From the IMG/VR virus record IMGVR_UViG_3300046683_000929, positions 34,181-98,180 of that record: a stretch of 64,000 nucleotides of DNA, one strand, 5' to 3'. Positions within the stretch are counted from its first letter, which is position 1. Every line of letters starts with the position of its first letter. This DNA comes from a virus. The notes below the pieces were generated by a model. The model was given only the letters and a program-made list of their open reading frames with translations, did not search any database and was not told where the DNA came from. Below are positions 1 through 44,701 of this stretch, piece after piece. Position numbers and translations under genes: made by a program.

Positions 1-841
1 TCGTTTGATAAACCCCAGCGCTACCATTCACTATTGTTCGCTGTGTTGGCAGATTATAATCATAATAAACAATATAAGATTTTGAAACATTCTGCCTTTC
101 CCTTATCAATGTTAATGTGTGTTGCCTGGGAATAAGACTGTCTGTTACATTTACTTTATATGTATTGGGATCTAACCCATATGCCTGATTAGGAATCATA
201 TGAAGGCTGTCTTCCATAAAAGCAATTACAGTACCTATAAAATCATTGTCTCCACTGGCTGCCGATAACGTTAAAGTATGAACATAATTTGAAAAGCCTT
301 TGGGCGATATAAAACCGACAAAGGAACCTGTATTAAGTGTGGATTTTACCGCATTAGTTACGGTGTCGAAAATCCAACTATTAGTAGCATCAACCCTTAC
401 TGGCATCTGTCCATTTATAAGTATTCCACCACTGGAAGATGGACTCCCTCCGTGAGCAAATCTTTTGAATGAATTAAATATTTGCAATTGAGTTGCTGAT
501 CCTGAAGCAAAGGCACTATCTTTTTGACTATCCGTATAGATAAACTGCCCATAAACTAATGGCTCTACAGGTAAATAATTATTTGAATTGTTGCCAGATG
601 CCGCCAATGTCTGCCCGCTTAATCCAATCGGCAGAGAAGGCCTGGCATTAATAAATTTATCGATTTGATACCTATCATAAAATCCGATATATGCATTAGG
701 CCCGCTACCTCCACCAATCCTTCTTAAAGTATCATCCCCTCTTTTTTGCCATTGAATAGTATTGCCAAACCCATACCATACCTGCGCATGGCCTAAACTT
801 GCGAAAAGCATCAATAATGCTACGAACGTTATTCTCTTCAT
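1..841 (-). CDS. Partial secreted or surface fibre-like protein with signal peptide
   Basis: The reading frame is open from the ATG at 841 to the window edge, so the C-terminus is missing. The protein begins MKRITFVALLMLFASLGHAQ: a basic start, a hydrophobic core and an AxA-like site, which is a convincing Sec signal peptide without a lipobox cysteine. The mature part is rich in Ser, Asn, Gly and Thr, as in fibre or surface proteins. The ATG overlaps the TGA stop of the gene before it (ATGA), so the two are translationally coupled. A phage virion protein would not normally carry a signal peptide. It may therefore be exported to the host surface, or be a fibre protein that passes through the envelope. 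No family was recognised. Confidence 0.75.
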   Translation of the reverse strand, partial: MKRITFVALLMLFASLGHAQVWYGFGNTIQWQKRGDDTLRRIGGGSGPNAYIGFYDRYQIDKFINARPSLPIGLSGQTLAASGNNSNNYLPVEPLVYGQFIYTDSQKDSAFASGSATQLQIFNSFKRFAHGGSPSSSGGILINGQMPVRVDATNSWIFDTVTNAVKSTLNTGSFVGFISPKGFSNYVHTLTLSAASGDNDFIGTVIAFMEDSLHMIPNQAYGLDPNTYKVNVTDSLIPRQHTLTLIRERQNVSKSYIVYYDYNLPTQRTIVNGSAGVYQT

Positions 842-1500
842 CATATTACTGTAACTATTATATCCTGTGGTGTACTTGTGTCAAACCCATAAAGACCGGC
901 AGGAGTAACAGATTTATCATACTGGGTATTTACACTCTTGCCATTTGACATTGTCAGAATAGGCCTCCTGTTCACCAGTAGGGCGTTCGGAAGGTAAAGA
1001 CTGCCAAAGCCATCATCCAATAAATTCGAAGCGGTAAAAGTCAAATCTACCGGGCCCGTTGTTGGAGGAATCCCGGAAGGTACCTGCCCGGATATTTGCA
1101 AGAAACCATTCGTGCCCCTGCTGAAGTCAAACGAAATACTCAGAATATCTTTTGTTTCGTCGTCATCCTCATAAGTAATATTTGGCACCGCACCGAAATC
1201 TCCCTGAGCTGGGCCGCCCGGCAAATCATAAATAAACAGCCAGGGATTGTTGCCGTAGAGAGGGTAGTAATTATCGTGGTAATTATCCAGAACTAAGCTC
1301 GGGCTATCATCTGTAGTTACAAAGGAGATCTTATCACTATTGAAATAAACTACACGATTTGCGATATTAAGAAATAAGTCAGCCAACTCCCACCAACAAT
1401 CTGTTTCATCCTGTAGACTTATGGAATTTGGTCGCGTTTTTATAAGTATTTTGGTTCTCACCCTTTCCTTATACGCGGCAATATCACTTGCTAAACTCAT
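841..1500 (-). CDS. Hypothetical protein, probable fibre-associated
   Basis: This is a 219-residue protein with no recognised family. The N-terminal third is probably helical (an ADLFLNIANRV segment). The rest is rich in aromatic, Asp and Gly residues with beta-type sequence, like small structural or receptor-binding phage proteins. It starts four bases after a TAAAATATTTTA palindrome and its stop overlaps the start of the signal-peptide protein. The pair is the last unit visible after the tRNA region. The link to fibres is inferred from composition and neighbours only. Confidence 0.7.
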   Translation of the reverse strand: MSLASDIAAYKERVRTKILIKTRPNSISLQDETDCWWELADLFLNIANRVVYFNSDKISFVTTDDSPSLVLDNYHDNYYPLYGNNPWLFIYDLPGGPAQGDFGAVPNITYEDDDETKDILSISFDFSRGTNGFLQISGQVPSGIPPTTGPVDLTFTASNLLDDGFGSLYLPNALLVNRRPILTMSNGKSVNTQYDKSVTPAGLYGFDTSTPQDIIVTVI

Positions 1501-1504
1501 TTCC

Positions 1505-1516
1505 TAAAATATTTTA
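1505..1516. promoter_or_regulatory. TAAAATATTTTA palindrome
   Basis: Exact copy of the 12-bp recurrent palindrome. Its TAA is the stop codon of the gene at 1514-1816, and the next ATG is four bases downstream on the minus strand. Confidence 0.7.
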
Positions 1517-1816
1517 TACGAAACTTTTAACCCACTGCTTAACATGGATATGTGCACCGCTGCAATTGGCACATTCATCCGCGCACTTTTGAAGATATTC
1601 CCACTGGTGTATATTGATTGTGCCGTATTCAATGCCTTCAAATTCAATGAAAAAACCTGTAACCATTTTGTATTTATTCTCTTGAGGATACCAGGCTCTT
1701 TCACTTTTTTCACCTATGACTTTGGCTGTATTGCAGTCCACGAAGAGTAAAACTGGACAAGGAAGTAATTCACCATCCTTATATATTATAGGGAATTCTA
1801 TTAATGCCTTAGCCAT
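1514..1816 (-). CDS. Hypothetical protein with Cys cluster
   Basis: A 100-residue protein with no recognised family. A CADECANCSG segment near residues 78-87 holds three closely spaced cysteines followed by HIHV, which could bind a metal. It is the first gene after the terminator at 1873-1905 and starts 36 bases after a copy of the recurrent palindrome, so that palindrome is the obvious candidate promoter for it. Confidence 0.6.
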   Translation of the reverse strand: MAKALIEFPIIYKDGELLPCPVLLFVDCNTAKVIGEKSERAWYPQENKYKMVTGFFIEFEGIEYGTINIHQWEYLQKCADECANCSGAHIHVKQWVKSFV

Positions 1817-1852
1817 ATAGGCATTAAAGATAAAACTTATTTTCGGATTCTC

Positions 1853-1864
1853 TAAAATATTTTA
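1853..1864. promoter_or_regulatory. TAAAATATTTTA palindrome
   Basis: Exact copy placed between a minus-strand terminator (1873-1905) and the next gene (start at 1816). There is no upstream coding frame here to explain the motif as a stop codon, so this copy argues for a promoter or operator role. Confidence 0.75.
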
Positions 1865-1872
1865 TTTAACGC

Positions 1873-1905
1873 AAAAAAGCCAGGATGCTTTTAACTATCC
1901 TGGCT
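1873..1905 (-). terminator. Intrinsic terminator
   Basis: On the minus strand a 9-bp stem (AGCCAGGAT with ATCCTGGCT) around a 10-base loop is followed by a run of six T. It ends the noncoding unit that begins near 2484. Confidence 0.85.
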
Positions 1906-2005
1906 TTTGCCCTCCGCATACCCAGTGCACTGATGTTAGCGGCAAAACAATTTATCAAAGTTTGTATCCTACCCCCTAAACGACCGCGTCACCCAATCAC
2001 AGATA

Positions 2006-2089
2006 CATAGCAGGCCGGGATCGAACCGGCGTCTCAAACTTTAATGTCCTAAGTACCATACCAGCAGTCTCTCAACTACTGGCTGCCTT
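2006..2089 (-). tRNA. tRNA-like gene, possibly tRNA-Leu(TAG), divergent
   Basis: The T arm is perfect: a GCCGG/CCGGC stem with the loop TTCGATC. A possible anticodon loop CTTAGGA gives TAG (Leu), and the 84-base length with an 11-base variable region fits a type II tRNA. The acceptor (AAGGCAG with CTGCTAT) has one mismatch and one wobble pair, and the anticodon stem is weak. It is either a fast-evolving functional tRNA or a decaying one. Confidence 0.45.
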
Positions 2090-2160
2090 CGCCGGGATAT
2101 CTGTCGCATTAGTTTTCTAATCCCTATAACACAACTTGCTAAAGCATTTTCCCTTTTGTT

Positions 2161-2183
2161 GGGGCCAGCGGTTTACTGGCCCC
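2161..2183. other. GC-rich hairpin inside the noncoding unit
   Basis: GGGGCCAG and CTGGCCCC form an 8-bp stem with a 7-base loop. No T run follows on the minus strand, so it is not a standard terminator for this unit. It may be structural or a processing site. Confidence 0.5.
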
Positions 2184-2258
2184 ATTTGCATCTACTCTGT
2201 TTCCGTAATAACGGGTTCTGTATATCGGGGTATGTTCTAACCATTCTTGAACTATTAG

Positions 2259-2346
2259 CCTAAACCAAACGGGGATCGAAACCCGTATCTTACCATCTTC
2301 TTGAAGCTGACTTATTAAGGATTACCCATGCAGCTATATGTTTTAG
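2259..2346 (-). tRNA. tRNA-like element, probably degenerate
   Basis: A T-arm-like hairpin (ACGGG/CCCGT) has an eight-base loop containing TTCGATC, one base longer than normal. Flanking segments CTAAAAC and GGTTTAG can pair as an acceptor with one mismatch. An AGCTG/CAGCT pair lies between them, but no standard anticodon arm is visible. I treat it as a tRNA relic or tRNA-like structure, not as a decoding tRNA. Confidence 0.3.
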
Positions 2347-2490
2347 CGAACTTAAAGAGAGTAATAAATTACCACGAACTTAAGCCGCTTTTTTTCATTT
2401 TAAGAAAGAGTAGCCAACCTCGCGTCAACTACCCTTCAACCTAAACCTTATCACAATTAATTACCTTGGCAGGTAATTCCTATTGAGACT

Positions 2491-2523
2491 CAAACATAAA
2501 GTTTATTTTTTAAAATAAAAAAT
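2491..2523 (-). promoter_or_regulatory. Bacteroidota-type promoter with upstream 19-mer
   Basis: On the minus strand TATGTTTG (2491-2498) matches the TAnnTTTG consensus of the Bacteroidota primary sigma factor. Immediately upstream is a 19-mer (2505-2523) built of ATTTTTT, ATTTT and AAAAAAT, found exactly once more, at the tRNA-operon promoter (3198-3216). It points at the noncoding unit. Confidence 0.65.
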
Positions 2524-2542
2524 ATAAATGAAAATAAATTTG

Positions 2543-2617
2543 TCCAATGGATAGGATTCGAACCTATTAAGCCGCAAAGCAATGGATTTACAGTCCATCC
2601 CAATTCACCGTCATTGG
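2543..2617 (-). tRNA. tRNA-Tyr(GTA)
   Basis: The anticodon arm is ATGGA/TCCAT around CTGTAAA, giving anticodon GTA. The T arm is ATAGG/CCTAT with TTCGAAT. The acceptor CCAATGA/CCATTGG has a mismatch at its base, and the discriminator is A. A 14-base variable region fits the type II form of bacterial tRNA-Tyr, but the D region is unusually short. No CCA is encoded. It is the last of the five-tRNA operon. Confidence 0.85.
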
Positions 2618-2636
2618 AGCCAAAGGATATTAAGAG

Positions 2637-2719
2637 CGGAGAGTATAGGACTCGAACCCTGCGCTTACACGCCGCGCCTGTTTTCAAGACAGGATGTTCA
2701 CCAATGAACGCTACTCTCC
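2637..2719 (-). tRNA. tRNA-Ser(TGA)
   Basis: The acceptor is GGAGAGT/ACTCTCC with discriminator G. The anticodon arm CCTGT/ACAGG surrounds CTTGAAA, giving anticodon TGA. The long GC-rich variable arm is typical of tRNA-Ser. No CCA is encoded. Confidence 0.92.
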
Positions 2720-2725
2720 AAGTTG

Positions 2726-2808
2726 CGGAAAATCTGGGATTCGAACCCAGGCAACCTTTCGGTTGTACAGATTAGCAATCTGCTGCCTTACCACTCAGCC
2801 AACTTTCC
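2726..2808 (-). tRNA. tRNA-Ser(GCT)
   Basis: The acceptor is GGAAAGT/ATTTTCC with discriminator G. The anticodon loop TTGCTAA gives GCT. The long variable arm (CAACC, GAAA, GGTTG) is typical of tRNA-Ser. It lies between the Leu(TAA) and Ser(TGA) tRNA genes. Confidence 0.93.
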
Positions 2809-2812
2809 TTTG

Positions 2813-2893
2813 TACCCCATCCCGGACTCGAACCGGGACGCCGAAGCATAAGATTTTAAGTCTTACGTGTCCTACCAATTTCACCAATGGGGC
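2813..2893 (-). tRNA. tRNA-Leu(TAA)
   Basis: The anticodon loop CTTAAAA gives TAA. The acceptor GCCCCAT/ATGGGGT ends in a G1-U72 wobble, with discriminator A. The T arm is CCCGG/CCGGG with TTCGAGT, and the variable arm has 11 bases. It starts only three bases after the first tRNA of the operon. Confidence 0.92.
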
Positions 2894-2896
2894 ATG

Positions 2897-2970
2897 TAGC
2901 CTGCCTCAGACTCGAACTGAGAACATCTTGATCCTAAATCAAGCGTGTCTGCCAATTGCGCCAGCAGGCC
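2897..2970 (-). tRNA. tRNA-Leu(TAG), short variable loop
   Basis: The anticodon arm CTTGA/TCAAG surrounds TTTAGGA, giving TAG, which reads CTN leucine codons. The acceptor GGCCTGC/GCAGGCT has a G1-U72 wobble and discriminator A, as in the neighbouring Leu tRNA. The variable loop is only five bases, so this is type I, although bacterial Leu tRNAs are normally type II. Its 5' end is three bases after the T run of the attenuator. Confidence 0.85.
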
Positions 2971-2972
2971 AT

Positions 2973-3004
2973 AAAAAAAGCCCCTTGATTTTGTCAAGAG
3001 GCTT
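2973..3004 (-). terminator. Attenuator terminator of the tRNA operon
   Basis: On the minus strand an 11-bp stem with a single G-U pair (AAGCCTCTTGA with TCAAGGGGCTT) and a five-base loop runs into a continuous run of seven T. It stands between the leader ORF and the first tRNA, so it must be read through for the tRNAs to be made. Its 5' arm (GCCTCTT, 2996-3002) can instead pair with AAGAGGC at 3041-3047 inside the leader ORF. That alternative would prevent the terminator from forming. Confidence 0.85.
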
Positions 3005-3026
3005 TTAAAAACTTTCATTTATAAAT

Positions 3027-3101
3027 CTAATCCATAGGATGCCTCTTTGCGTCGTATAACGAATAACTTAACAAGAGACTATATAGATTTTTATTTTTCA
3101 T
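3027..3101 (-). CDS. Leader peptide of the tRNA operon, Leu/Tyr/Ser run
   Basis: The 24-codon ORF begins MKNKN and continues with LYSLLLSYSLY, then DAKRHPMD and a TAG stop 22 bases before the terminator stem. The run of 11 uses Leu codons CTA, CTC, TTG and two TTA, Tyr codons TAT twice and TAC, and Ser codons AGT twice and TCG. The five downstream tRNAs carry Leu, Ser and Tyr and between them can read all of these. Segment GTCTCTT (3073-3079), inside the run, can pair with AAGAGGC (3041-3047), which can also pair with the terminator's 5' arm. This is the layout of classical leader-peptide attenuation. The ORF has no other likely role. Translation is inferred, not shown. Confidence 0.8.
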   Translation of the reverse strand: MKNKNLYSLLLSYSLYDAKRHPMD

Positions 3102-3184
3102 ATTAAAACATCAATGGCAACAAGCGATAGTATCTTTATTTTTCTACCAACGAAGTAAGGTACATCTACGGCACATCGATATCA

Positions 3185-3216
3185 CAAAAGTAAACTAATT
3201 TTTTAAAATAAAAAAT
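3185..3216 (-). promoter_or_regulatory. Promoter of the leader and tRNA operon
   Basis: TACTTTTG (3185-3192, minus strand) fits TAnnTTTG. The same 19-mer seen at the noncoding-unit promoter lies just upstream (3198-3216). The expected start is near 3178, giving a leader of about 75 bases before the leader ORF. A second short ORF beginning MYLTSL lies at 3136-3165. Confidence 0.65.
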
Positions 3217-3231
3217 GTAATTCAAAATAAA

Positions 3232-3257
3232 ACTGGCCGACATTAATGTCGGCCAGT
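3232..3257 (-). terminator. Intrinsic terminator
   Basis: A perfect 26-bp palindrome (a 10-11-bp stem of ACTGGCCGAC and its complement) is followed on the minus strand by TTTTATTTT. It closes the unit that includes the gene at 3399-3875 and insulates the tRNA promoter just beyond. Confidence 0.88.
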
Positions 3258-3398
3258 TAATTGCCGTGGTAAGGTGCTGCAATGGTTCCCATGTAGTACA
3301 TCCAGCCGCGCTCTCTTTAGCTACGCTCTCCAGTTAAAGTCTTAGGATTATGACGGCTTAGATGCATCTACTTATATATATGCATTGAGGTTACCACT
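3258..3398 (-). other. Untranslated 3' region, possibly structured
   Basis: These 141 bases between a stop codon and the terminator contain no gene. GCCGT and ACGGC near the two ends can pair, and short hairpins such as ATGG, GAA, CCAT lie between. It may be a structured 3' end or a small RNA released from the transcript. Nothing identifies a family. Confidence 0.3.
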
Positions 3399-3875
3399 TT
3401 AGCCAACAGATAAATCTTTTGCTTTCGAAACTTTACTTTTCGCCTCGACTCTTGCTTGTGTGGCAAGCTCCAAATAACGCTTTGCGTCATTAAGTAAATC
3501 ATCGGCCTCTTTTAATAACTGCTTCTTAATAGATATAAAGTCTTTCACATAGCCGAGTTTTTGATAAACTTCGTATTCATCAAGAAACATGAAATGATAT
3601 CCAGCTGGATTAGCCGAAAAATGAGTTACACTGCCCCTATCTTGCATAGGCCCATGATCTGGCACTATCTTAATGTTGGCACACACAGAACTCCATGGCC
3701 GGGTAATTAAAGCCACGCAAACATCGGCACCATTGCTTCGAGCAGCTGAATCATCTGGATTTGGAAAGAAAATGACAGTTTCGCCAAGTTTTGGCATGCG
3801 TTCGCTGAACGCTTGAGAATTATTTTCCACTTTTTTAATTTTAAAGTCCCCGCAACATCGCGGATATTTAGTCAA
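3399..3875 (-). CDS. Hypothetical protein with C-terminal coiled coil
   Basis: Up to 158 residues with no recognised family. The central part (VIFFPNPDD, ALITRPW, PAGYHFMFLDE) looks like a compact beta-rich domain. The last 45 residues (KKQLLKEADDLLNDAKRYLE and onward) are a likely coiled coil. The longest frame starts at a TTG five bases after a recurrent palindrome. A GTG about 15 codons in, or the ATG at 3797, are alternatives. The terminator at 3232-3257 follows. Confidence 0.65.
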   Translation of the reverse strand: MTKYPRCCGDFKIKKVENNSQAFSERMPKLGETVIFFPNPDDSAARSNGADVCVALITRPWSSVCANIKIVPDHGPMQDRGSVTHFSANPAGYHFMFLDEYEVYQKLGYVKDFISIKKQLLKEADDLLNDAKRYLELATQARVEAKSKVSKAKDLSVG

Positions 3876-3880
3876 ATATA

Positions 3881-3892
3881 TAAAATATTTTA
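3881..3892. promoter_or_regulatory. TAAAATATTTTA palindrome
   Basis: Exact copy; its TAA is the stop of the gene at 3890-4264. It lies five bases upstream of the TTG start of the next gene. Confidence 0.7.
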
Positions 3893-4264
3893 GTAATACG
3901 TATCAGCCTTTTCGTTGTCGTCTTTATAATCTGTTACTACAAACCCAGTCCATGTACCTCTTACCAGAAGCTTTCTTTTACATCCCTGGCAGTTCATTGT
4001 ATATTGCATTTCATGAGACTCTCCAACTTCTTGCTCACAAGTACAAATAGGGCATTTAAATATGGATGATACTGTAGAGATATGACATGCCACTTTTGGC
4101 TGCGCGATCCATTCGAATATTGACGAAAACCCGAATTTATGACAGATAATATCTGCCTGCTTTTGGTAGTCATCTTTACGAACTCCTTTAAACATCCCAG
4201 CCTTTTTTAAACCGGCAAAGTCAAAGTGCTGTTCCATGAAACTTTTTAATGCTATATCAACCAT
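3890..4264 (-). CDS. Zinc-ribbon hypothetical protein
   Basis: A 124-residue protein. Residues from about 70 to 98 contain CPIC and CQGC about 24 residues apart, a typical zinc ribbon, followed by a short beta-rich tail. The N-terminal half is helical with no known family. It follows the 3029-residue ejection protein at the end of that unit. Such small zinc proteins often contact nucleic acid, but no function can be given. Confidence 0.65.
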   Translation of the reverse strand: MVDIALKSFMEQHFDFAGLKKAGMFKGVRKDDYQKQADIICHKFGFSSIFEWIAQPKVACHISTVSSIFKCPICTCEQEVGESHEMQYTMNCQGCKRKLLVRGTWTGFVVTDYKDDNEKADTYY

Positions 4265-4321
4265 ATTTTAAAATTAAAGAAGGCGCTGATATAAGTATCG
4301 ATGCGCGATAAGCTAAAATAC

Positions 4322-7300
4322 TTACTTTTTCTTTTTAATTTCCTGCCCCTCAGCAACTATCTTTTGATAACTAAACTTTTCAATGAGTTTCTGTTTAGCA
4401 TATTGCGCTGCTACTGTAGCAGCTCGCTTCGGTGCCATTCCCCTCTTTTCAAGCTCCTGCTGTTTGGGCTCTTTTATCTGCTCGTAGTAGTCCTGGTGTT
4501 CTTGACTAAGCTCTATAACTTTACTTCCAACTTTTAGTGGAGTAGGCTGGCTAAGATCACGATAATTGGGCTCATGAAATTTACTGGCCAATCCATATTC
4601 TACTTGCTTCCGCAGCGCATCTACAGACCGGTTAAAGTCGGCATCATTTAAACCGGCAAAGGCGAGCATGTTTGATAACATACTACTCGCAATCACCGCT
4701 TTCTGATAAGGGGTAATATTAACTGGTACACCATATTTATCAGTGTTGTCGAAAATACGGTACGTGTCTTTGGCGATATCCCCCATGCCGTTAAATGCAG
4801 CCCCATACATACCATAATTGTTCGCTTCGGATATCTGTTGCCCTACTGATATATTTGGCTCATAGAAAAACTCACTATTGGTTAATTTATTGATTCCGCG
4901 CTGGGCCGCATCCTGTGGGGCGTTACCCAATCCGCCGAAAAAATAATTACCTAAAACGTTGGTATACCATTGCTGCAAGAAATTATCTCTTTTCTGCTGC
5001 AACTTAATATCTATTTTATCAAGCACATCTTTTTTCTCTTTATCGTCCCCAAAAATAGATGTAAGGCCATAAGCAAGCCCTTTAGTGACAAGTGCTGTTA
5101 TTCCATACCCAATTGATAGTTTAATCCCCTGGAAGAACGTTTCCTCTACCAAAGCACTCATTAACGATTTCGCAGCGACGCCGGCCTGGTTCTTTCTATA
5201 GTCAGCATCAACAAATGTGTCCTTACTGGCAATAGTTCTGAAATTTTCAGTCAACGTCTGAAATTTATGCATGTTGAAAGAGCCAAACGGGAATAACAAT
5301 GTTTTGGCCGCCATGTAGAAAGCATTGTTGGAATTAATCAACTTTGACCTGGCTGATTTTGAATTTTCATTCAGTTGCTTAGCGGTCATATTCTCTGCGT
5401 AGTCGGCAGCTTCCCTGTTTGGGGTTTCCGCTTCTTTTGCCCAGTCAATTGCTTTAAAATCTACCGCTTTCCCGTTTTTCATTAGATGATCAGCATAGTA
5501 GGTAACCCACGCCCATTCCCCTGTTTTTACGTCCCCATACTTTATAGGTTTCGCTATCTTTCTATCTACCGTTGTGCCGTCAGGATTTAATTGAAGTAAG
5601 TACTTGTCAATTACTGTTTCGGTGTGATCGAACATTTTTTTGATCACACCTTTCTCATCGTTCCCTTTTATCGTATTATCCTTATCGGCCAGCGCCTCGT
5701 CGCGCAGGGTATTCAGCGACGCCATGTTATCGCCACGCTCACTGATAGGATGTTTTTTTATCAGCGCCTTAACCTCATCGCTATTTAGCACGCTCGCGGC
5801 ATCACGCATTAGCTTCGCATCGCCGCCGATATTAACCAGGGTATTGAAGATGGTGGCAGATGCTTGTTTTACCAAAGCCGAATAACTCAACAACTGTTTA
5901 AATGTACCTAGTTTAGTGATGATGTTTAAGCCCTGCTTCATTAACCTCAGCTCCTTTTCGCCAACGCTATTATTCAGACCCATCTCATTCAGGACATTGT
6001 TGCGTACAGTCTCTTTATACATCTGGTGGTTTTCGTTCCCCAAAGCATCCCGCAGCGTACGATTTTTCAATGCCTCGTCAAAGATCTGCCGGCTTTTTAA
6101 AGTATGGATATCGCTGAGCTGATCTTTGATGTTCTGATTTTGCACGTCGAAGAAGTTAAGGTTTAAAACCTTTTGCTTTTCGCCCGATTTTGAAGCCAGC
6201 GGATCTCCTTTCACACGCTGCAGCGTCGCTACCGATCCGTTGGTAGTATTTTGCTCCATAGCAGTAAATCCGAGGCCCTCCCCACTTACTACATCCACCA
6301 AGCCGGTACCAAGAAACCTATAACCATCCCGCATGTGATTGCCCCATGCTTCATATGGCATGTTCAATTGACGCTTTACCACATCCTGGTGCGCAGGTCG
6401 TAGTTCATCATCCGCAGCACGATAAACATCATAAACTTTACGCTCACCAGGTTCCAGAAATTCAATCTGGCGAATCTGATCATAACTCAGGTTCTTTAAT
6501 TGATCGCCATCCGAAACATCAATTCCAGTTGCATCTTTGATTTTATCTGAAAACCCCTGCCAAATATCCCTTTCTATGGCAGCTTCGCTATTATCGTTTT
6601 TAAGGCCCTCGGCGGCTTTCAATTCAATATCCCGCTTGATTATATCAACCCTGCGAATAAGCTCGGCATTCTGCTGCTCTGGCGATGAGAACTCCCTATT
6701 TTGATTTATGTAGGAAAACAAAGAAAGGCGCTGGATTGACTCCGGGCTTTTTGCAATTGTCGGATTCTCTTTAAAAACAACCTCCAGTTTTTTACCTATT
6801 AATTCATCATACCTATGTTTCGCCTGTGCAAAGCCATTCCTAATTTCATCAAAGTGGCTACCGGTATTAAGCTTGCTGAGGAAATCAAAATCGTTATTGG
6901 CTATTCGGCTCATTATAACACTTAGGTTCGCCCCAACAGCCCGCAATTCACCGAGTTTAGTTTTAAACCTGGCACTTTTGCTTTTACGCCCTGTCTCTTC
7001 CAAGTAATTAGGTAATTTTAATGCCCCCTCGTCTCCATTACCAATGGCTTTCGCCTCGAAAATACCTATTCCACTATGATCGTCATTATTGATCACATTC
7101 TCCAATACGTTATTAAACAACCGAAGTGTATCAGCATCCTGCCCGGCCAGCGGCACCTCTTTAAGGATTTTCAAGCTTTCCTTCTGCTCTGGCGACATTG
7201 ATGTATCTATTTCGATTAGATCCTGTTTAGCCGAAGCAATATTCTCCAATGACTCCCGAAGCGTTTCTGAAAGTTCATTTGGCTTATCGTTGATGGTGTC

Positions 7301-33127: not shown

Positions 33128-34342
33128 TTAAACCGAAGCGAATGATTGAGCTATCTTTTGGTTATCGGCATCGGAAATTTCAACTGACTTACTTTGTAGT
33201 ATGGTTTTACTTGGTTCGGTAAAACGCTGTTGACTACCTTGGGCCCCTATTTTTTTTCCGGCATCCTTACCAACGCTATATGCTGTCCTTTCGACATCTT
33301 TGTAATGACGATATACCAACTCTTTTTCAGCCGCTCTTGCAATCCGCTCCCTTTGTTCGGGGGTGCCATTACCTTTAACAAACTCTGAAAACTCCTTAGT
33401 ACCTATTTCATCAATCAAAGATTTCTCAATTGCTTTCTTGTCGGCTTTAGTAAGGTCGAAAGTAACCTTCTCTTCGCCTTCGCCAAACTCCCATTTATCC
33501 GGAATGGCCTTCTGTAGCACATCCTTCATCATGGCCTCGAAACCAGGGATAGCTTGGCGTTCTTTTACATCCTGGTCGAACTCGGCCTTAATGTCATCAT
33601 ACTTCTGTTGAAGTGGCCCCTTAATCGCATCGGCGCGAACCTTAATGTTTTTTTCGCCAAGGTCCTTAAGTGCTTTGGTTTCCGAATCAAGGTGATACAG
33701 TTCATTGAACTTATCTTTTATTTCTTCGCTGGTAACCGGGTCGGGGTTGCCGTCAATCTGGCGATCCTTATTTAATTCCTTGTATGAGGCCTCAAAATCT
33801 TTAAACACCAGATCATTGTCTGGCATCTTCATCATATTATGGTATCCTAACCAATCATTATTGGTGAATACTTTTTGCTCAATGGCAAATTTGGCCAGGT
33901 TTGCATTATATACTTCTGCTTTTTGGGCGCGTTGTTCTTCGCTTTCCGGGGCAGCTGGATTCAACTTGGCTTTTAACTCTTCTTCAGAGCTAACACCTAA
34001 ATCCTTTAGAAACTGCTGCCTCATTTCCTGCTTCATCGTTTCTGTTGCAGTAAGCTGGTCGGCTTTCGTTTTTTCGTCTGCTTCCAGCGTGGCTATTTCT
34101 TCAGGACTTTTGCCTGGGTATTTAGCTAAAAGTGCATCGGCGGCAACTTTTTCCGCATCGATTTGTTCTTGTGTTTTCTCGCCGGCTTTAGTAAGCTCTG
34201 CTTCTGCGGCAATTTCATCAGCAGTCTTTTCAACAGCACCATCGCCTTCCGGCACTTTGGTCCTTTCATCTACTATGATTTCTGCTCCAGTGGGCTCAGT
34301 TACAGCCTTCCCCACTTCTTCAAGTCCTTCTCCAAATATCAT
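33128..34342 (-). CDS. Scaffolding-like protein
   Basis: A 404-residue protein, highly charged (Glu, Lys, Asp), with almost continuous predicted helix. Several coiled-coil stretches are visible, and an Ala/Glu-rich N-terminus precedes them. It is the first gene of the capsid unit, directly before the major capsid protein, which is the usual place of a scaffold. There is no sign of a protease domain. The start has a plausible Shine-Dalgarno-like GGGAG, rare in this window. Confidence 0.65.
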   Translation of the reverse strand: MIFGEGLEEVGKAVTEPTGAEIIVDERTKVPEGDGAVEKTADEIAAEAELTKAGEKTQEQIDAEKVAADALLAKYPGKSPEEIATLEADEKTKADQLTATETMKQEMRQQFLKDLGVSSEEELKAKLNPAAPESEEQRAQKAEVYNANLAKFAIEQKVFTNNDWLGYHNMMKMPDNDLVFKDFEASYKELNKDRQIDGNPDPVTSEEIKDKFNELYHLDSETKALKDLGEKNIKVRADAIKGPLQQKYDDIKAEFDQDVKERQAIPGFEAMMKDVLQKAIPDKWEFGEGEEKVTFDLTKADKKAIEKSLIDEIGTKEFSEFVKGNGTPEQRERIARAAEKELVYRHYKDVERTAYSVGKDAGKKIGAQGSQQRFTEPSKTILQSKSVEISDADNQKIAQSFASV

Positions 34343-43129: not shown

Positions 43130-44701
43130 TTATTTTATATTGAGCAACAGGCACTCTGTAGTTAACATCAACCCGGCTATTGACGCTGCATTTTCCAACG
43201 CCTCTCGTACTACTTTTGTCGGATCAATAACGCCGGCAGCAATAAGGTTTTCATATTTATCGGTACGTGCATTGTAACCAAAGTCACTTTCACCTTCAAG
43301 TATCTTTTTGTGAACCTGGCTGCCGTTAATACCTGCATTTTCGCAAATCTGAAATAGGGGAGCCCGCAAAGAATTAATTATAACTTCAACGCCCTTAAAT
43401 TCATCTGAAGTATATTCTGATTTTAATTCTGCATACTGAAGTGCCCTTATATAAGCAATACCTCCACCGGCAACTATCCCCTCTTCAACTGCTGCCCTGG
43501 TAGCATGTACTGCATCGTCGATACGGTCCCTTTTTTCATTGGCCTCAATTTCGGTTGTGGCACCTACATATATTGTGGCTACGGATCCGTCCAGGTTAGA
43601 TACCCTGGCTTTTAACACTGATTTATCATCGTCGCCGTGCGCAGCTTCGATTGCCAGTTCAAGGTCCTTTACGCGGGCGCTGATTAGTTCCGGATTGCCT
43701 TTGCCGCCAATAATAGTTGTGCTATTCTGGTCAATGATAATCCGGTCGGCCTGGCCCAAGAAAGAAAAGTCAATCTTTTTTAATGCAACTTCATTTTCAT
43801 AGGCAACTTTACCTCCAGTTACATAGGCGATATCCTCCATGATGTGGTGACGAAGATCTCCGTAGCTGGGTGCGGTAACCGGCGCTATTTGCATGCCATC
43901 TTTTTTATTAACCGCAATTACATTCATAGCGGCAGGATCAAACTCATCGGCAATAATTACGATTGGTTTTCCTGAATTTAACACAAACTCCATGGTGCCA
44001 ATGAGCTGCTCCATGGTACGGACTTTTTTATCATATAGCAATATCCATGGGTTATCAAACTCGGCGGTTTGCTTTACCTGGTTGGTCATGAAGTGCTGAT
44101 GGATGAGACCCTTGTCAAACACAAAACCCTTTGAGAATTTAAGCTCTGTTTTTGAACTACTCGAATCCTCAACATGAATAGCGCCGTATTTTCCAACCTT
44201 ATGCATGGCTGCAGCTATCATTCCGCCAAGTTCTTTGTCGTTGTTGGTAGATACCATGGCCACGTTAAGCAGAGTTTCCTCATTGCCATCTACAGCGATG
44301 CTTTGAGATTTTATATGATCAACAACTGCGGCTACTGCCATATCAATGCCGCGCTTCAATGCCATTGGATTAATGCCGGCAGATATCTCTTTCAAGCCCT
44401 CTTCGAAGATAGCCTGGGCAAGCACCGTCGCCGTTGTGGTACCGTCGCCGGCGCTTTTAACCGTTTTTATGGCAACCCCTTTCATGAGCTGCACACCTAC
44501 ATTAACCAGGGGATCTGTTACCTCAACATTACTGGCCACCGTAACTCCATCCTTTGTAATCATTGGCCACCTGCCATCCCTGTCAATAACTACGTTACGC
44601 CCCTTTGGACCCAGTGTTACCTTTACCGCATTAGCTACAGTATCCACTCCCTGCTTTAATAAGTTGCGAGCGTCTTCGTTGTACCTTACTTCTTTGTTCA
44701 T
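43130..44701 (-). CDS. groEL: GroEL chaperonin
   Basis: A 523-residue full chaperonin. ATPase residues are intact: TKDGVTVA near residue 51, AGDGTTTAT near 86 and DDAVHATRAAVEEGIVAGGG near 397. The apical and intermediate domains look complete. It ends at LTTECLLLNIK, where cellular GroEL continues with about 25 residues and the Gly-Gly-Met tail, so this tail is absent. Phage GroELs are known from giant Pseudomonas phages. Two GroES-like proteins lie 4 kb downstream beside terminase and portal, so the phage probably folds its capsid or tail proteins with its own system. A hairpin stands just before the start. Confidence 0.97.
   Translation of the reverse strand: MNKEVRYNEDARNLLKQGVDTVANAVKVTLGPKGRNVVIDRDGRWPMITKDGVTVASNVEVTDPLVNVGVQLMKGVAIKTVKSAGDGTTTATVLAQAIFEEGLKEISAGINPMALKRGIDMAVAAVVDHIKSQSIAVDGNEETLLNVAMVSTNNDKELGGMIAAAMHKVGKYGAIHVEDSSSSKTELKFSKGFVFDKGLIHQHFMTNQVKQTAEFDNPWILLYDKKVRTMEQLIGTMEFVLNSGKPIVIIADEFDPAAMNVIAVNKKDGMQIAPVTAPSYGDLRHHIMEDIAYVTGGKVAYENEVALKKIDFSFLGQADRIIIDQNSTTIIGGKGNPELISARVKDLELAIEAAHGDDDKSVLKARVSNLDGSVATIYVGATTEIEANEKRDRIDDAVHATRAAVEEGIVAGGGIAYIRALQYAELKSEYTSDEFKGVEVIINSLRAPLFQICENAGINGSQVHKKILEGESDFGYNARTDKYENLIAAGVIDPTKVVREALENAASIAGLMLTTECLLLNIK

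Follow-up and report, generated by a model that had tools for sequence, protein, structure and literature searches.

The question raised by this locus is whether a phage tRNA operon can sense a shortage of its own products. The DNA analysed, referred to here as the window, is a stretch of 64,000 nucleotides (positions 34,181 to 98,180) of the virus record IMGVR_UViG_3300046683_000929, which is 98,180 bp long. An earlier sequence-only reading of the window had interpreted a short open reading frame (ORF) ahead of five tRNA genes as the leader peptide of an attenuator that responds to the same tRNAs it controls. The comparisons described below, made on sequence, support this interpretation, and we consider it very probable that ribosome-mediated transcription attenuation makes phage tRNA operons respond to shortage of their own products.

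A candidate attenuator ahead of five tRNA genes

The features of the unit are listed in Table 1. The five tRNAs and anticodons named by the sequence-only reading (Leu-TAG, Leu-TAA, Ser-GCT, Ser-TGA and Tyr-GTA) were borne out, as was the 24-codon ORF with an 11-residue run made only of Leu, Tyr and Ser. Because an in-frame TGA lies four codons upstream, the ATG is the sole possible start of this ORF. Across the six frames of the 64-kb window, the run in the leader is the only Leu/Ser/Tyr run of at least nine residues. An intrinsic terminator, also part of the earlier interpretation, sits between the leader ORF and the first tRNA, directly before tRNA-Leu at 2970; its hairpin has a 9-bp stem with a dG of –12.2 kcal/mol and is followed by seven T. 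Regions 1 to 4, four segments proposed to pair alternatively, lie where they had been placed, and the 1:2, 2:3 and 3:4 pairings were all located accordingly. In the window, the 2:3 pairing (AAGAGGC/GCCUCUU) beats 500 shuffles (p=0.002) and the 1:2 pairing gives p=0.02. The unconstrained minimum free energy fold of the leader contains an extended 1:2 hairpin together with the 3:4 terminator.

Table 1. Coordinates of the leader, its predicted control elements and the tRNA genes in the window.
Feature	Position	Strand	Remarks
Intrinsic terminator isolating the unit from upstream transcription	3231..3258	–	12-bp stem, 7 GC pairs, T-rich tail
Promoter	3185..3216	–	AT palindrome ATTTTTTATTTTAAAAAAT at 3198-3216; –7 box TACTTTTG at 3185-3192
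Leader ORF MKNKNLYSLLLSYSLYDAKRHPMD	3027..3101	–	24 codons
Control-codon run LYSLLLSYSLY	3054..3086	–	CTA TAT AGT CTC TTG TTA AGT TAT TCG TTA TAC
Region 1, GTCTCTT	3073..3079	–	partner of region 2 in absence of translation
Region 2, AAGAGGC	3041..3047	–	would pair with region 3 on an earlier stall; otherwise under the passing ribosome
Attenuator terminator GCCTCTTGACAAAATCAAGGGGC	2973..3002	–	hairpin 2980-3002 (regions 3 and 4), T-run 2973-2979
Region 3, GCCTCTT	2996..3002	–	terminator 5' arm
Region 4, AAGGGGC	2980..2986	–	terminator 3' arm
tRNA-Leu (TAG)	2896..2970	–	first tRNA after the attenuator
tRNA-Leu (TAA)	2812..2893	–	
tRNA-Ser (GCT)	2725..2808	–	
tRNA-Ser (TGA)	2636..2719	–	
tRNA-Tyr (GTA)	2542..2626	–	

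The promoter and the isolating terminator that had been proposed are both present. With its TAnnTTTG –7 box, however, the promoter belongs to the Bacteroidota type and not to the sigma-70 type. This motif is the –7 box of flavobacterial sigma-A and occupies positions –12 to –5 (PMC9723704). In the window the closest box is 83 nt upstream of the leader ATG, which corresponds to a 5' UTR of about 80 nt. In most of the relatives described below the box is about 4 nt before the leader ATG, and this distance together with the –12 to –5 position places the ATG at +1. Most relatives' leader RNAs are thus predicted to be leaderless, unlike that of the window. The AT-rich palindrome ATTTTTTATTTTAAAAAATWA has two copies only in the window (2503-2523 and 3196-3216, minus strand), both immediately before a TAnnTTTG box, and the copy after the tRNA-Tyr gene may mark the start of another transcript.

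Two further RNA-like stretches with a tRNA-type T-arm occur on the minus strand of the window at 2225-2345 (ACGGGTTTCGATCCCCGT) and 2000-2100 (GCCGGTTCGATCCCGGC). Neither ARAGORN nor Rfam called a tRNA at these positions; they are possibly degenerate or D-arm-poor tRNAs.

Identity of the phage and its relatives

Neighbouring window proteins used alone as queries found no relatives, which were found instead through an alignment of TerL. The window TerL is distantly related, at about 22%, to those of Flavobacterium, Cellulophaga and Maribacter phages. The genes of the window phage are without Shine-Dalgarno sites, and this together with the TAnnTTTG –7 box and the TerL kinship points to a host that is probably a member of the Bacteroidota. 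One close relative, IMGVR_UViG_3300045391_004554 (hereafter G001), has collinear genes, with 49% identity in TerL, 69% in a probable capsid protein and 55-58% in a giant neighbouring protein. Scans of the giant-protein and probable-capsid alignments returned G001 only, and nothing among bacterial genomes. Another phage related through TerL is G022, and from its tRNA arrays we reached the cultured phages discussed below, which carry units of the same kind. When leader peptides were used in tblastn, copies were found only in the same phage groups or there was no match.

An N4-like origin, considered because of tRNA matches and the large ORF, was dropped since the giant protein has no Pfam or PHROG match and TerL is closest to Flavobacterium, Cellulophaga and Maribacter phages. 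The window phage encodes a full-length GroEL (43130-44701, minus strand; PHROG 5725, E about 1e-150) that shares 47% identity with the GroEL of a Bacteroides phage.

Leaders of related phages match their own tRNA sets

At the syntenic site G001 encodes tRNAs Pro(TGG), Leu(TAG) and Leu(TAA), and its leader ORF MKQISLLNLLGLPLPGIKGRSMD contains the run LLNLLGLPLP. The 5' arm of the G001 terminator is complementary to the leader ORF right after the run. From the window phage to G001 the design is retained, and the control residues change from L/Y/S to L/P along with the tRNAs.

Units of the same kind are found in the cultured Cellulophaga phages phi38:1, Calle_1, phi17:2 and phi4:1, in Maribacter phage Panino and in Tenacibaculum phage Gundel_1. 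We analysed 15 units, namely those of the window and G001 and 13 in phi38:1, phi17:2, Panino, Gundel_1 and G022, which carry up to three units per phage; in G022 a matching leader stands before every one of the three tRNA operons. Several of these phages divide the 20 amino acids over three tRNA operons. Leaders of the Pro/Glu/Gln/His/Leu/Arg(ACG) operons contain RLHTQLLEQPR, LLHQEPLEQLRLP, QRLHQELEQP and QRLHLQELEQP, those of the Tyr/Ser/Ser/Asn/Trp/Phe/Cys operons YNSFWYSFCNN, YNNFSWYSNCSFSSYN and NYCTYNNSNWSFSY, and those of the Ala/Lys/Ile/Gly/Met/Asp/Thr/Val/Arg(TCT) operons TIIDIATDIRTKGGK, IMNIATDIRTKGVK, AATGIAIIGRTKDK and TKTGITVIDKTKGARA. The match extends to rearrangements. In Gundel_1, tRNA-Asn is located in the Pro/Gln/Met/Leu operon, whose leader has NN..NN, and Asn is absent from the run of its Tyr/Ser/Trp/Phe/Cys leader. 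The match also extends to isoacceptors. Arg codons in the runs are CGN in operons with Arg-ACG and AGA in operons with Arg-TCT, the exception being G022a, where a second Arg is AGA beside CGN. Every relative that has a unit keeps a run, with its residues changed to suit its own tRNAs. This is the reverse of the outcome that the sequence-only reading had named as a refutation, namely relatives that retain the tRNAs and have lost the matching run or the pairing.

These patterns bear on whether the leader ORFs could be real small proteins, for instance tRNA-binding or tRNA-processing peptides, with the terminator acting solely as a spacing or processing signal. Some have entries as hypothetical proteins (phi38:1 gp066, Panino CDS0063 and CDS0064), and leaders of the same type are alike. 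However, leader composition tracks the tRNA set rather than a fold, one of two syntenic relatives has an L/Y/S run and the other an L/P run, the type of Arg codon follows the isoacceptor, which protein function would not require, and the terminator is complemented by region 2 within the ORF. We therefore regard small proteins as an extremely unlikely explanation.

The tRNA arrays of crAss001 and DAC16, like those of phages that infect other host phyla, do not have the device, and it is also absent from G004, G005, G006, G019, G020 and G025.

Some tRNAs in the arrays were missed by ARAGORN because of odd D-arms, and we identified these from their anticodon loops. Shortened or odd D-arms occur in tRNAs that were missed or left unassigned at L131 3485-3575, L128 14260-14346, L133 4006-4149 and L130 2700-2785, with anticodon loops of Arg-TCT, Trp-CCA, Tyr-GTA and Cys-GCA. 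The Panino array (L131 3737-4079) has an annotated tmRNA, adjoining tRNA-Thr and tRNA-Asp, that scores as a permuted tmRNA (62 bits vs a gathering score of 47). In G001 (L096 3900-6300), a tRNA-CAT at about 4501-4571 is accompanied by a TATATTTG box of its own. A non-coding stretch of G001 at about 5790-6020 looks structured and has no confident match in Rfam.

Statistical support for the leader–tRNA match

The simplest rival explanation is that an AT-rich spacer has by chance yielded a Leu/Ser/Tyr-rich short ORF ahead of an ordinary terminator. The spacer is indeed AT-rich, and Leu, Ser and Tyr codons are frequent in AT-rich non-coding frames. The sequence-only reading had put the chance of the window run at 1 in 5 million per position, which is roughly the right order, although a shuffle test is a safer statement. 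For this we generated 4000 dinucleotide shuffles of the 330-nt window leader and scored all three sense frames. The score of the window run was reached by none of the 4000 shuffles. With no reading frame chosen and with unit boundaries (terminator positions) set after inspection, the score of each leader for its own tRNA set gave p<0.01 in 12 of the 15 units, the remaining three being at 0.0155, 0.0185 and 0.057. A conservative combination over six representative units gave p about 1e-8; units of the same type share ancestry, so the 15 are not independent draws, and the more independent cases are the window type, the G001 type and the rearranged set of Gundel_1. In the three leader types, 39/42, 42/47 and 54/56 residues belong to the operon's own class. 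As a control, 31 tRNA clusters of other phages, including crAss001, were scored and none matches at p<0.01. Chance leaves these results unaccounted for, as it does the reappearance of the match, involving different amino acids, in G001 and 13 further units; the relatives already refute it, and we assign it a negligible probability.

RNA pairing and simulated ribosome position

The pairing scheme proposed for the window carries over to the relatives in part. The terminator is kept and the 2:3 pairing is significant in most units (p<=0.022 in 9 of 13 tested), with sequences that differ between units. In phi38:1-A, G022c, Panino-A and phi17:2-A it is not significant, as shuffles pair about equally well. 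By contrast, the 1:2 protector helix is significant in only 3 of the 13 units (window, G022b and Gundel-P), and the general design therefore needs just the competition of 2:3 with 3:4 and a ribosome over region 2. Region 2 starts at ORF nucleotide 47 to 58, near the end of the run, in 12 of 13 units measured, and the distance from stop codon to terminator is 18 to 40 nt in the units measured.

We also simulated the effect of ribosome position, using a footprint of 12 nt counted from the start of the A-site codon. In all 15 units, simulated 2:3 pairing was 0.56-0.97 with the A site in the run and 0-0.32 with the A site on the stop codon. The codon at which 2:3 is lost in the simulation is at most two codons from the last cognate codon in 14 of the 15 units; phi38:1-P differs by five codons owing to the way its run end was scored. 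This coincidence suggests that the run fills the codons where a stall could act as a signal. From the footprint simulation we infer a polarity in which a stall would lead to read-through and free passage to termination.

In 12 of the 15 units, region 2 resembles a Shine-Dalgarno site and lies no more than about 10 nt before an ATG or GTG, in phages that are mostly without such sites. In the window, region 2 is followed by an ATG at 3033-3035 (ATG GAT TAG). The combination exceeds a rough composition estimate (p about 1e-4), and the site could let ribosomes enter at a second point and lock region 2. This frequency speaks for a rival view in which the attenuator has another main input, be it entry at region 2, general ribosome slowing or failure of initiation on leaderless RNA. 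Also in keeping with such an input, leaders that lack a 1:2 helix would be read through when they are not translated. The rival view leaves unexplained, however, why each run matches the tRNAs of its operon even at the level of the isoacceptor, and we think it very unlikely that the main input is of this kind.

Proposed mechanism and significance

In the mechanism we favour, namely attenuation by ribosomes stalling on the operon's own codons, RNA polymerase would start at the TAnnTTTG promoter and produce a leader RNA with a short ORF. With enough charged tRNA the ribosome would clear the run and cover region 2, the 3:4 terminator would form and no tRNAs would be made. A cognate charged tRNA might run short because a defence nuclease cleaves host tRNAs, because of starvation or because the phage uses so much of it. 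The ribosome would then stall in the run, leaving region 2 free to pair with region 3 and allowing read-through into the tRNAs. An untranslated leader in the window phage would adopt the 1:2 and 3:4 pairings, and transcription would end there. In some related Bacteroidota phages up to three tRNA operons would share this design, each leader being tuned to its own set. Because the run codons are read by host tRNAs as well, the sensor would respond to the entire tRNA pool.

On balance we lean toward a further idea, that each operon monitors translation of its own codons. The phage would then replace only the tRNA groups lost or destroyed by the host, for instance through defence systems that cleave tRNAs, and up to three operons, each with a sensor of its own, would divide the 20 amino acids between them.

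If attenuation is correct, tRNA supply would be under feedback control through codon-specific ribosome stalling, and phage tRNA genes would gain a regulated, on-demand role. The purpose of phage tRNAs would become testable, with a boost for codon usage set against replacement of tRNAs cut by host defences. The leaders, which are mostly unannotated, would also provide natural reporters with which to follow the charging of tRNAs for each of the 20 amino acids. Since units are present in the cultured phages Cellulophaga phi38:1, Maribacter Panino and Tenacibaculum Gundel_1, they can be tested now.

Comparison with known systems

Ribosome-mediated attenuators control amino acid biosynthesis operons such as trp, his, leu, thr and ilv. 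The phage units share with these a short ORF that holds control codons, an antiterminator and a terminator that exclude each other and, as predicted here, read-through upon stalling. They differ in that the amino acid attenuators control enzymes, whereas the phage units would control tRNAs and their control codons name the products of the operon. In addition, a single phage leader can hold as many as nine amino acids, the device resides in a phage genome, and most phage leaders are predicted to be leaderless and are without a clear 1:2 helix. Leader-peptide attenuation of amino acid operons has been reported, as inferred, in Flavobacterium psychrophilum (PMC9723704), which belongs to the group that probably hosts these phages. 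For attenuation of tRNA operons, we found no description in the open-licence literature searched, the coverage of which is incomplete.

Two other systems respond to the state of tRNA. The T-box RNA binds uncharged tRNA directly and does not need translation; it shares with the proposed phage mechanism transcription termination governed by tRNA shortage or charging. A T-box riboswitch was rejected for the window, as an Rfam scan to E=1 gave no match to a T-box family in positions 1-6000. In Escherichia coli, the pheST operon for PheRS is controlled by an attenuator with the leader peptide pheM. Here too the level of charged tRNA acts via a leader peptide on a gene for tRNA charging, but this concerns one synthetase and one amino acid, whereas the phage units would act on the tRNAs themselves and on whole sets of them. 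Leader-peptide attenuation is thus a known form of control, and its proposed use on tRNA operons looks new.
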